A stretch of 64,000 bases of DNA, from positions 1,116,001-1,180,000 of the forward strand of contig NZ_FOZK01000001.1 of NCBI RefSeq assembly GCF_900114435.1. The letters run 5' to 3'. This DNA comes from Halomicrobium zhouii. Lineage in GTDB: Archaea > Halobacteriota > Halobacteria > Halobacteriales > Haloarculaceae. The notes below the pieces were generated by a model. That model had not been told where the DNA came from and did not search any database. It saw only the letters and a program-made list of their open reading frames with translations. Positions 48,713 to 55,876 of the stretch are shown in pieces. The position numbers and the translations under genes are program-made. Within the stretch, counting starts at the first letter, position 1. Every line of letters starts with the position of its first letter.

Positions 48713-49137
48713 CCGGTCGGCGCCGACCGCAGGGAGGGGCCGACGAAGGAGCGAACGGCGAGCGAAGCGAGCCGTGAGCCGGTCGGCGCCGACCGCAGGG
48801 AGGGGCCGACGAAGGAGCGAACGGGGAACGGAGTGACTCGTGAGCCGGTCGGCGCCGAGCGCTGGGGGCGCGAACGAAGTGAGGGCCCCCGAACGGGCGA
48901 ACGGCGAAGCCGTGAGCAATCGAGGGGCCGACGAACGAGCGAACGGCGAGCGAAGCGAGCCGTGAGCTGGCCGGCGCTGAACGGCGGGCGGCGCCGACCG
49001 AAGAGAGGGGCCACCGTACGTGCGAGCGGTGACTGAAAGGAGCCGTGAGCAGTGAAGGGCGGACGAACGAGCGATCGGGGAACGGAGTGACCCACGAGCC
49101 GGTAGGAGCCGAGCCTCGCGAGGCTCGGCCCCGGCGA
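48713..49137. repeat. Tandem array of about six hairpin-bearing units between DUF106 and cmk
   Basis: Units start at about 48713, 48779, 48845, 48917, 48967 and 49050. Units 1 and 2 are 66 bp and nearly identical; units 3-6 are diverged or shortened. Shared parts are CCGGTCGGCGCCGACC (a palindrome), GGGGCCGACGAA and a stem around GAGCGAAGCGA or GAACGGAGTGA: ACGGC/GCCGT in units 1, 3 and 4, ACGGG/CTCGT in unit 2. The array occupies most of the 565-bp gap (48673-49237); nothing else is recognisable there. Confidence 0.85.
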
Positions 49138-50956: not shown

Positions 50957-51601
50957 ATGGACGAGCGCCTCGCGCGCACGCTCAGGACCTACGAGGACAA
51001 CGCCGAGCGATACGCGGCGACGAACGCGGACCGGTCGGGCGTCGACGCCCTCCTCGACCGGTTTCTCGACGCGCTGGACGGCGACCACGCTCTGGACGGC
51101 GACCACGCTCTGGACGGCGACCACGCTCTGGACGGCCGCCGCGTTCTCGACGTCGGCTGTGGCCCCGGCTGGGAAACGGCCCGGCTGGCCGCGGCCGACG
51201 TCGACGTCGTCGGACTCGACATCTCGCCGTCGTTGCTCGCGACGGCGACCGACCGGGCTGACGGCGCCGACCTTGCCCTCGCGGACGCGCGTTCGATACC
51301 GTTCCGATCCGGCACCGTCGACGGCGCCTGGGCCTGTGCCTCGCTCGTCCACCTCCCCCGCGACCAGCTACCCGGTGCGCTCTCCGAACTGTCCCGGGTC
51401 CTCCGCACCGACGGTCTGTTCGGGGCGACGGTCAAGAGCGAGGCGTACGACGACCGCACCGACGACTACGACGGCGAACGCCACTTCGAGTATTACGAGG
51501 CCGACGCGTTCGAGGACCACGTCGAGCGCGCTGGCTTCGACGTCACTGCCGTGGAATCGTCCGAAAACGGCTGGCTGTGGGTCGAAGCTCGCGCAGGGTA
51601 G
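50957..51601 (+). CDS. Class I SAM-dependent methyltransferase with in-frame repeat
   Basis: 214 residues. SAM motif [13 protein letters not shown] (about residues 63-74), motif II VVGLDIS, post-[19 protein letters not shown], and a C-terminal sheet; small-molecule methyltransferase of the UbiE/ubiquinone type. Three perfect 18-bp repeats encode [18 protein letters not shown] between the first helix and motif I, extending a loop without breaking the fold. Divergent from adk. Substrate unknown. Confidence 0.9.
51074..51127 (+). repeat. Three perfect 18-bp in-frame repeats inside the methyltransferase gene
   Basis: CTGGACGGCGACCACGCT occurs at 51074, 51092 and 51110, followed by the diverged CTGGACGGCCGC. 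Because the unit is a multiple of 3 it only lengthens the linker before SAM motif I. Confidence 0.95.
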
Positions 51602-52419: not shown

Positions 52420-52874
52420 TCACCGCGTCCAGTACCAGGTCGTGAGCGGGACCCGGACCGGGACGATTTCGATGCGTCCGACCCACACCGGCCCGGTCGG
52501 CAGCCGTTTCGTCGGCGTCGAGAACGGGGCGTCGCTCACGAAGGGGCCGGCGATGCCGAACGCGGGGCCGACCTCGAAGAACGTCGCCCCGGTCGCGCTC
52601 GTCGCCTCGAACTCGCCGACGGTCGCGCCGGTCCGGGACTCGTTGACCACGACGAAGATGGCGCCGAGGATGAAGTAGACGAGACTCACGACCGTGGACG
52701 CACACACGTCGCTGACGGTCTCTTCGTCGACGACGCTCCCGCTCAGTCTGACGGGGCGGACGGCGTGTCGTCGTAGATAGCGATTCCCTGCGGTAGCGCG
52801 AGCGGAACCCAGAGCCACTTCAGCACCGTCCCGACGGGGCTGAGTCCCTGTCGTCAGTCGACGCGGATCTTCAG
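52420..52874 (-). pseudogene. Decayed second trkH (N- and C-terminal pieces joined)
   Basis: Directly after trkA, in the trkA stop overlap, the frame reads L-KIRVD-stop-RQGLSPVGTVLKWLWVPL-ALPQGIAIYDD, a TrkH N-terminus with the start ATG changed to CTG and a nonsense codon in place of Trp. Near 52770 this joins, in another frame, to a TrkH C-terminus: RPVRLSGSVVDEETV, then the last P-loop VGPAFGIAGPF and VWVGRIEIVPV. About 1.2 kb of middle is missing. Clear pseudogene of a TrkH whose intact relative is at 54323-55876. Confidence 0.9.
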
Positions 52875-54205
52875 ACGGCCGCTGCGACGTCGTCGAGCAC
52901 GTCGGTGTCGACGAACAGCACCACGTGGTCGCCGGCTTCGATACGCGTCCCGCCACGGGGGACGACGTACGCACCGTCACGGGTTATCGCACCGATGACG
53001 ACGCCCTCCGGGAGGTCGGCGGCCGACTCCTGGATCCGCCGGTTCGCGAGGACGCTCTCTTCGTCCACCTCGATTTCGAGCACCTCCGCCTGTCGCCCCT
53101 CGATGAGCGAGAGGTTCTCGATCTGGCCCGCCTGCGTGTGGCGGATTATCTCCTCCGCGGTCGCCTCGCGCGGGTTGATGGCGACGTCGACGCCGACCGT
53201 CTCGAACAGGTCGGTGTACTCGCCGTTCTCGACGATAGCGACAGTCCGGTCGACGCCGAGTGTCTTCGCCAGCAGCGAGACCAGCAGGTTCTTCTCGTCG
53301 CTGTCGAGGGCGGCGACCGCCACGTCGGACCGGTCGACGTGTTCGGCGGTCAGGAACTCCGCGTCCGTCGCGTCGTGTTCGATGACGGTCGTCTTCGGGA
53401 GGGCTTCGGCCAGCTCCCGCGCTCGCGCCGTATCGCGCTCGATGAGCCGGGGGCGCATACCCCGGTCTTCGAGGATCTTCGCCGTCTGGTAGGCGATGGC
53501 GCTCCCGCCGATGATAACGACGTCGTCTGGGTCGGGCGTCTCCGCGGGCGCGACGCTCTCCGCGAACGAGTGGACGCTGTCGGGTCGACCGATGACGATC
53601 GCCCTGTCGTCGGCCTGGATGACGGTATCTCCGTCTGGAACGATCACCTCGCCGCCACGGATCAACGCGGCGATCGTCAGCGCTTCCCACTCGTCGGCTT
53701 CGGCGACCGTCTGCGCGGCCACTGGACTCCCCTCGCCGATGCTGAACTCCGCCATCTGGACCGCGCCACCCGCGAAGGGGTCGACGTCGAGGGCGGCCGG
53801 GAGCCCGATGACGCGGACGACGTCCTCCGCGGTCAGAAGATCCGTACAGACCATGAAGTCGACGCCGAAGGCGTCGTTCGAGTGGTTCCACGTGTCGAGG
53901 AAGTCGACGTTGCGCACGCGAGCGATGGTGAAGGGGTCGTCGACGGTCTTCGCCGTCGAGCAGGTGACGAGGTTCGTCTCGTCGTCGTCGGTACAGGCGA
54001 TCAGCATGTCCGCCTCGTCGATGCCGGCGTCCTGCAGCGCCGCCAGCGAGGCGCCGTCGCCCCGTATCGCGAGCACGTCGACCGAATACGTGAGGCTCTC
54101 GACGACGGACGGGTCCCGGTCGACCACGACCACGTCGTGATCGGCCGCGAGGCTGGCTGCGATACTCGATCCGACCTGGCCGGCACCGACGATGATGACG
54201 TGCAT
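52871..54205 (-). CDS. trkA: TrkA, K+ uptake regulatory subunit
   Basis: 444 residues, two RCK units: RCK-N (about 1-130, GAGQVGSSIA nucleotide motif), RCK-C (about 140-215), second RCK-N (about 228-350, with IIGGSAIAYQTA) and RCK-C (about 360-440). Binds NAD(H)/ATP and gates TrkH. Upstream trkH is 117 bp away on the same strand; downstream is a dead second trkH, so a former trkA-trkH pair existed. Confidence 0.95.
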   Translation of the reverse strand: MHVIIVGAGQVGSSIAASLAADHDVVVVDRDPSVVESLTYSVDVLAIRGDGASLAALQDAGIDEADMLIACTDDDETNLVTCSTAKTVDDPFTIARVRNVDFLDTWNHSNDAFGVDFMVCTDLLTAEDVVRVIGLPAALDVDPFAGGAVQMAEFSIGEGSPVAAQTVAEADEWEALTIAALIRGGEVIVPDGDTVIQADDRAIVIGRPDSVHSFAESVAPAETPDPDDVVIIGGSAIAYQTAKILEDRGMRPRLIERDTARARELAEALPKTTVIEHDATDAEFLTAEHVDRSDVAVAALDSDEKNLLVSLLAKTLGVDRTVAIVENGEYTDLFETVGVDVAINPREATAEEIIRHTQAGQIENLSLIEGRQAEVLEIEVDEESVLANRRIQESAADLPEGVVIGAITRDGAYVVPRGGTRIEAGDHVVLFVDTDVLDDVAAAV

Positions 54206-54322: not shown

Positions 54323-55876
54323 CTACCGCTGCCAGAAGTTCGGTGTGAAGATGACGAGCACGGAGAGTATCTCCAGGCGGCCGATCCACATCAGGAAGAC
54401 CATGTAGAGTTTGGCCGCGTCCGAGAACGGCTCGAAGCTGTTCATCGGGCCGACGACGCCGAAGCCCGGACCGATGTTGCCGAGCGTCGCGATGGCCGCG
54501 CTCGTCGCCTCCATCGCGGACAGATCCATCCCGGTGCGAAGGCCGTCGAGGAAGAGCAGGACCGACGAGACGCCGAAGAGCGTGATGAACACCATCACGA
54601 AGACGAAGATTCCCTGGATCGTCTCCTCGTCGACCGGCCCCTCGGCCATCCGGATCGGGCGGACGGCGTCGGGGTGGACGGTCGTGAACAGCTCCCGAGT
54701 CATCGTCTTCTGGACCACGTACCAGCGGACGATCTTGATCGACCCGGCCGCGGACCCGGCAGAACCGCCGAGGAACATCGCGAACAGGAGGACGAGCTGG
54801 GCCGACTCGCCCCACGTGTTGAAGTCCATGCTCGCGTAGCCCGTCGTCGTCACGATGGCCAGCGACTGGAACAGCGCCTGTCGCAGCGAGTTCTCCAGGT
54901 TCCCCGGCAGGACGGCGATGTTGGTCGGCACGTCCGCGAGCCCCAGTCCGGTGTACAGCAACACCGCCAGGAGTCCACCGACGGCGGCGACGGCGAGGAC
55001 GTACGCCCGGAACTCCCTGTTCCCCGTGAGTCGCCGTGGCTCGCCGTTGAGGGCGTACCAGAACAGCGCGAAGTTGGTCCCCGCGATCAGCATGAACGGC
55101 ATGACGGCCCACTGGATCACCGGAGAGAACGCCTCGACGCTCCGGGCCTCGGGGGAGAAGCCGCCGGTCGGCATCGTCGTCAGCGCGTGGGCGACGGCGT
55201 TGTACAGGTCCATGTTCGGCGCGTAGCCGGTAGCCCCCAGGACGTAGAACACCACCGCCGCCGTGACGGTGAACCCGGCGTAGATGCTCCACAGCGCACG
55301 TGCGGTCTCCTGGATCCGGGGCGTGAGCTTTTCGATGCTGAAACCGGGCGCCTCCTCGTTCATCACCTGCGCGCCACCGACCGATAGCTCCGACAGGATC
55401 GCGACCATCAGGACGATGATCCCCATCCCGCCGATCCACTGTGTCAGCTGTCGCCACAGCAGGATCGAGTGGGAGTGGTAGTCGACAGATATCGTTCCCA
55501 TGACCGTCGACCCCGTCGTCGTGAACCCGCTCATGCTCTCGAAGAGGGCGTTGACGGGGTCGGCGAGGGTGCCCTGGCCGGCGACGAGGTACGGGATGGT
55601 CCCGACGAGCGGGACGGCGAGCCACGTGAGGCTGACCATCAGGAGCGCCTCACGCCGACCCAGTTCGCGGTCCTCGCGAAGCCGTTCGAGGCCGAAGCCG
55701 AGGACGACCATGACCAGTGAGGTGACGACGAACGGGCGGATGGGCTCCCCGTAGTAGAGCGCCACGAGGAGGACGGTGGCGGGGGCGAGGGCCAGCCGCG
55801 TCAGAATCGTGCCGATGAAACTCAGACTGGACCTGTAGTCGACGTAACTCTCGAACACTGGACCAACACCTCTCAT
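54323..55876 (-). CDS. trkH: TrkH, K+ transporter membrane subunit
   Basis: 517 residues from ATG 55876 (an in-frame GTG upstream is possible). Four pore-loop motifs of the TrkH/KtrB family are present: SGFTTTGSTVM, TTMPTGGFSP, VTTTGYASMDF and TLGNIGPGFG, so the filter should work. About ten hydrophobic segments. Na+- or H+-coupled K+ uptake matters in salt-in haloarchaea. Followed by trkA. Confidence 0.96.
   Translation of the reverse strand: MRGVGPVFESYVDYRSSLSFIGTILTRLALAPATVLLVALYYGEPIRPFVVTSLVMVVLGFGLERLREDRELGRREALLMVSLTWLAVPLVGTIPYLVAGQGTLADPVNALFESMSGFTTTGSTVMGTISVDYHSHSILLWRQLTQWIGGMGIIVLMVAILSELSVGGAQVMNEEAPGFSIEKLTPRIQETARALWSIYAGFTVTAAVVFYVLGATGYAPNMDLYNAVAHALTTMPTGGFSPEARSVEAFSPVIQWAVMPFMLIAGTNFALFWYALNGEPRRLTGNREFRAYVLAVAAVGGLLAVLLYTGLGLADVPTNIAVLPGNLENSLRQALFQSLAIVTTTGYASMDFNTWGESAQLVLLFAMFLGGSAGSAAGSIKIVRWYVVQKTMTRELFTTVHPDAVRPIRMAEGPVDEETIQGIFVFVMVFITLFGVSSVLLFLDGLRTGMDLSAMEATSAAIATLGNIGPGFGVVGPMNSFEPFSDAAKLYMVFLMWIGRLEILSVLVIFTPNFWQR

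Follow-up and report, generated by a model that had tools for sequence, protein, structure and literature searches.

A trkH pseudogene consisting of the joined ends of the gene follows trkA in Halomicrobium zhouii

The trk genes of the locus and the remnant after trkA

The window, the whole stretch of DNA that we analysed, comprises 64,000 nucleotides of Halomicrobium zhouii. TrkH is the membrane pore and TrkA is the cytosolic gating ring of the potassium uptake system. The intact pore gene of the locus, trkH1 (54323..55876, minus strand), encodes 517 aa and matches the Pfam TrkH family PF02386 with an E-value of 1.8e-67. The intact regulatory gene, trkA (52871..54205, minus strand), encodes 444 aa, with two TrkA_N and two TrkA_C stretches in Pfam and a score of 690 bits against NCBIfam NF007034, the cut-off of which is 344. 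It is under purifying selection, with a dN/dS of 0.206 relative to strain HArc-gm2 and 0.053–0.134 for six neighbouring genes. TrkH1 is one of two PF02386 matches (E ≤ 0.001) in the genome of 4.25 Mb, which has a second intact trkA-trkH pair at C1:1483395-1486388. TrkH1 and TrkA would form the surviving potassium uptake system of the locus, and TrkA presumably now serves TrkH1.

Directly after trkA lie 455 bp (52420..52874, minus strand) that remain of a second trkH, here trkH2, of ~1,497 bp. For comparison, we read nine intact trkH2 relatives (L122, L123, L125, L126, L128, L131, L174, L079, and L078), which are not independent, with two pairs sharing an identical trkH2 protein. All nine have 498 codons (1,497 bp), an ATGA overlap of the start codon with the trkA stop, and TGG as codon 7. 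In the remnant, CTG (52874-52872) overlaps the trkA stop (52873-52871), giving CTGA instead of ATGA, and codon 7 (52856-52854) is TGA. The N-terminal piece (52764..52874, minus strand) aligns with the intact relatives over 37 codons and reads LKIRVD*RQGLSPVGTVLKWLWVPLALPQGIAIYDDT. The C-terminal piece (52420..52764, minus strand) contains 114 codons and a TGA stop (52422-52420) in another frame, abbreviated AVRPVRLSG...FFEVGPAFGIAGPF...WYWTR*, or more fully, from 52764, AVRPVRLSGSVVDEETV...FFEVGPAFGIAGPF...WVGRIEIVPV...WYWTR*. The alignments of the two pieces share the junction base 52764, and neither needs an internal gap. The net loss relative to the nine relatives, from codon ~37 to codon ~385, amounts to ~1,042 bp; this number is not divisible by three, which puts the C-terminal piece out of frame. 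The closest intact relatives, only 59–63% identical in the C-terminal piece, are too distant for the breakpoint or a microhomology to be read. Comparison with the C-terminal profile places TGATFFEVGPAFG, which we take to be the remnant of the last pore loop, at 52555..52593 (minus strand); within it, Glu stands where all nine relatives share an Asn.

A preliminary description of this DNA had claimed that the 455 bp after trkA join both ends of a TrkH out of frame, with the start ATG changed to CTG, a Trp codon changed to a stop, and the last pore loop kept in the C-terminal piece. All of this is borne out by the nine relatives; the coordinates given are exact, and both ends align with one trkH2 subfamily at the homologous place after trkA. 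The accompanying claim that the gene died by a large internal deletion is firm for the deletion itself and conjectural for its role as the cause of death, as any of the three lesions may have come first. The gene lost its start codon, gained the stop at codon 7, and lost ~1,042 bp with a frame shift, the last probably in a single deletion event.

Homology and loss of protein constraint

Both ends of the remnant belong to the TrkH family by sequence homology. Aligning the translated pieces with haloarchaeal TrkH, a check proposed in the preliminary description, gave 59–65% identity to the nine intact trkH2 for the N-terminal piece and 59–63% for the C-terminal piece, with the stop counted. A profile of the nine N-termini scored 123.6 at offset 0 of the remnant and at most 37.8 in 3,000 dinucleotide shuffles; its next-best place in the six frames of the whole window was the N-terminus of the intact TrkH1, with a score of 44.4. 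The C-terminal profile scored 337.9 on the remnant and no more than −21.2 in 1,000 shuffles. The N-terminal reading, singled out beforehand as the point on which the description could fail, therefore aligns with TrkH. It is practically inconceivable that TrkH ancestry is confined to the C-terminal piece and that the N-terminal reading arose by chance: the N-terminal piece is short, contains a stop, and is unseen by Pfam, but a chance reading is refuted by the shuffle test and by the common overlap position, exactly where 9/9 relatives start.

The best family-level matches to the C-terminal piece, among the matches listed, are intact TrkH proteins of three genomes (G088, G022, and G089) with 62–63% identity, each encoded directly downstream of a trkA that is 65–69% identical to that of the window. 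A survey of 392 genomes from the order (E ≤ 1e-27) turned up nothing closer than 65%. The TrkH tree places the remnant inside a 21-row trkH2 clade (100, SH-aLRT), with an end branch of 1.66 versus a median of 0.12.

Pfam at E ≤ 0.1 returned no family for either piece, NCBIfam, to which only the C-terminal piece was sent, returned none for that piece, and the whole-genome PF02386 search (E ≤ 0.001) matched the two intact TrkH only. The TrkH identity of the remnant rests on direct comparison because the two libraries gave no match. A plain tblastn search with a TrkH protein, however, detects the C-terminal piece with an E-value of 3e-19. The expectation that an annotation pipeline would miss the remnant is thus supported for profile searches, but a homology-based pseudogene finder might flag it, given this match and the fact that comparable scraps in two other genomes (G014 and G068) exceed the PF02386 cut-off.

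At sites invariant in the nine relatives, the remnant is changed at 24/116, 27/144, and 7/30 of the first, second, and third codon positions (21, 19, and 23%). The same count, in the same order of positions, gave 10/126, 1/145, and 23/53 for the intact trkH2 of L123 compared with the other eight, 5/121, 1/145, and 7/37 for that of L079, and 33/306, 38/357, and 19/72 for the window trkA. The change in the remnant is equal over the three codon positions, and therefore the protein constraint is gone. The ratio of trkH2 to trkA divergence at second positions was 1.10–1.20 in the nine pairs that include the window, versus 0.18–0.51 in 23 of 36 intact pairs, namely those with trkA more than 5% different at second positions. 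Invariant residues are replaced at 11 of 32 sites in the N-terminal piece and at 27 of 83 in the C-terminal piece.

The remnant combines the loss of the start codon, a nonsense codon, a frame-shifting deletion, and the loss of protein constraint. TrkH has four pore loops with a selectivity filter. Such a set in one frame is absent from the remnant, codons ~38–384 being gone and the last loop being in the other frame; no working pore can come from it, because all but the first 37 and the last 114 of ~498 codons are missing. We conclude that 52874-52420 is almost certainly a dead second trkH whose start once overlapped the stop of trkA as ATGA.

A fragment could, with low probability, be translated from the C-terminal frame, which is open over 114 codons, or 187 with its overlap into trkA. 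That this frame still yields a small membrane protein with a new role, such as modulating TrkH1, by initiation within trkA or by read-through, is very improbable. The 187 open codons and an out-of-frame GTG inside trkA would permit it, but the evenness of the changes over codon positions is that of unconstrained DNA, several of the replaced invariant residues are, in our reading, changed to Pro or Arg in stretches that are hydrophobic in the relatives, and long frames often arise by chance in this DNA (8 kb are overlapped by 50 ORFs of 60 aa or more). An assembly or sequencing artefact is scarcely credible. The locus is known here from assembled sequence alone, but it lies inside a contig of 1,619,644 bases, and a single misassembly does not yield an altered start, a premature stop, a deletion, and dozens of base changes across both pieces.

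The sister strain HArc-gm2 and the ancestral gene order

The trkA nearest to that of the window belongs to strain HArc-gm2 (G005; JAOPKE01), which, according to excerpts of its published account, shares 99% 16S identity with Halomicrobium zhouii and by genome is nearest to Halosiccatus (PMC9726719). The two trkA genes are 84–85% identical and occupy the same chromosomal place with collinear flanks: window 62004-55970 corresponds to G005:C14 206000-200120, the trkA segment 54274-52884 to 200102-198709, and 52360-51614 to 195174-194439. In contrast to the ~1.7 kb with trkH1 upstream of trkA in the window, HArc-gm2 has 17 bp, and a close copy of the window trkH1 was not found elsewhere in its genome, the best DNA match (67%) being its other trkH. 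A trkH2 remnant was not found at its trkA locus; in place of the remnant, there are 3.5 kb with a short TrkA-like gene and a convergent, distant TrkH (PF02386, E 1.1e-113) that is 27–30% identical to the trkH2 of G022 and to the window TrkH1. An intact trkH2 after trkA, which the preliminary description proposed to look for in sister species, was not found in this sister; the nine more distant modules have one. The silent divergence of trkA between the window and HArc-gm2 (dS 0.42) exceeds that of six neighbouring genes (0.11–0.29), which may reflect a recombinational exchange of the trk segment.

Two other features were observed in this part of the window. An ORF at 50957-51601, which we read as methyltransferase-like, was not found in the otherwise collinear 16 kb of HArc-gm2; an in-frame repeat of 18 bp occurs in it 3.8 times (51069-51136). 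The DNA at 48713-49114, upstream of a kinase-like gene, contains imperfect, GC-rich tandem repeats (66 and 122 bp), and related stretches match in the collinear HArc-gm2 region.

The partner of the window in the TrkA tree is HArc-gm2 (100/100), and the pair is joined next by Halomicrococcus gelatinilyticus L148 (99/89), all three inside a 14-row clade (100/100) in which one record occupies two rows (L179 and G085). Within this clade, the nine modules that we read have trkH2 only, L148 and L179 have trkH1 directly upstream of trkA and no trkH2, HArc-gm2 has neither, and the window has trkH1 and the trkH2 remnant. The TrkH1 proteins of the window, L148, L179, L195, and G090 form one 5-row clade (97, SH-aLRT), and all are encoded upstream of a trkA. 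Descent from a trkH1-trkA-trkH2 ancestor, with either of the two trkH genes lost, would explain this distribution, with the reservation that the branch of L148 is long. Three relatives of the same trkA clade without trkH2 (L117, L148, and L179) were searched for a trkH2 remnant within 1.5 kb downstream of trkA, and none was found, all N- and C-terminal scores lying below the maxima of 200 mononucleotide shuffles. A C-terminus of trkH1 was likewise not found within 1.5 kb upstream of trkA in the nine trkA-trkH2 modules, with scores of −12.6 to 0.4, compared with 261 and 270 in the positive controls L148 and L179; seven of the nine were compared with 100 shuffles each, L079 and L078 being scored without shuffles. 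A score of 8.6 in L195 (shuffle maximum 1.6) was taken as noise in view of these controls, the trkH1 of that locus being 1.9 kb upstream.

The simplest reading is that the ancestor of the locus had the order trkH1-trkA-trkH2, which is likely, not proven. The preliminary description had given this order as a conclusion; it stands as the simplest reading and falls short of proof, with nine modules lacking a nearby upstream trkH1 C-terminus, a sister lacking both trkH genes, and three adjacent intact genes in the order trkH-trkA-trkH found at none of the loci compared. A competing but distinctly less probable history is that trkH1 did not belong to the original operon and arrived, perhaps by lateral gain, at a trkA-trkH2 locus before or after the death of trkH2. 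The upstream search in the nine close modules agrees with it, as do the 17 bp in HArc-gm2 with no close trkH1 copy elsewhere and the raised dS of trkA, a hint of segment exchange. On the other hand, L148, whose trkA is next to the pair of the window and its sister, also has trkH1 directly upstream, and its TrkH1 shares the 5-row clade with that of the window, although the long branch of L148 keeps this argument from being firm.

We tentatively consider that in these haloarchaea trkA is the lasting anchor around which the pore subunit is exchanged, so that one TrkA ring changed pore partners within one genus, though this is rather doubtful. The TrkA of the window would now work with TrkH1 after the loss of TrkH2, and that of HArc-gm2 with the distant convergent TrkH. 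As a pseudogene from a transporter family with several copies, the trkH2 remnant is nothing out of the ordinary; in the titles and abstract openings of the literature, we found no paper with a haloarchaeal trkH pseudogene as its subject. What is new here is a sister strain, HArc-gm2, that keeps this trkA at the same chromosomal site and lacks both trkH1 and trkH2. With the remnant, the loss of a transporter subunit in nature is well documented; two profile libraries overlook it. The window and HArc-gm2 provide a genome pair in which the same-place trkA outlived its pore genes, and the freedom with which TrkA rings combine with different TrkH pores thereby becomes testable.

Comparison with other trk modules

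In five genus mates (G001, G002, G003, G004, and G006), as in the window, a trkH lies directly upstream of trkA on one strand, but their TrkH is only 54–57% and their trkA 59–60% identical to those of the window. The TrkH of the pairs in G003, G004, and G006 is on another branch, and a trkH2 match downstream of trkA was found in none of the five at the loci compared. G006 has, in addition, an intact TrkH from the trkH2 clade that stands alone and shares 50% identity with the C-terminal piece.

In Halosimplex salinum (L195, the same record as G094 and L082) and G090 (L087), one strand carries trkH1, followed by trkA and then trkH2, each at full length. Unlike the window, they have ~1.9 kb of other DNA between trkH1 and trkA, containing two long frames in L082, and their trkA is on another branch.

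The plasmid NZ_CP118160.1 of Halosimplex aquaticum (G088) resembles the window in its trkA-trkH2 order, in the homologous ends, and in the stop-start overlap of the two genes, which is ATGA there; its trkA is 66% and its TrkH C-terminus 63% identical to those of the window. In contrast, its trkH2 is intact, and a diadenylate cyclase gene rather than trkH1 precedes trkA, as its annotation also gives (diadenylate cyclase, trkA, TrkH family potassium uptake protein). In this plasmid region (L252 830-6494), the diadenylate cyclase gene is just before trkA-trkH2, and the opposite strand after the pair carries a cation:proton antiporter and a gene with a TrkA C-terminal domain, a potassium module on a plasmid. 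Of 26 plasmid records with a match, 7 carry relatives of the C-terminal piece with at least 60% identity, and one of the two inspected has no trkA within 5 kb. These genes therefore probably move.

At least two other haloarchaeal genomes carry trkA-trkH scraps with joined ends. These were found with a C-terminal query, by which scraps keeping other parts would be missed, and hits in G105 and G133 that end at a contig end were excluded from the count. In G014 (L250 6861-7450, on G014:C12), trkA codons 1-79 are joined out of frame to a trkH2 C-terminus that is 84% identical to that of G022 and has a stop at a Trp codon of its relative. In G068 (G068:C1), trkA codons 131-391 are joined out of frame to a TrkH C-terminus with a stop (L246 5231-6369), and a second C-terminal scrap lies at L246 7708-7890. 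Like the window remnant, these scraps show a large internal deletion with the module ends joined out of frame, but in both genomes the deletion begins within trkA and reaches into trkH, leaving trkA dead as well.
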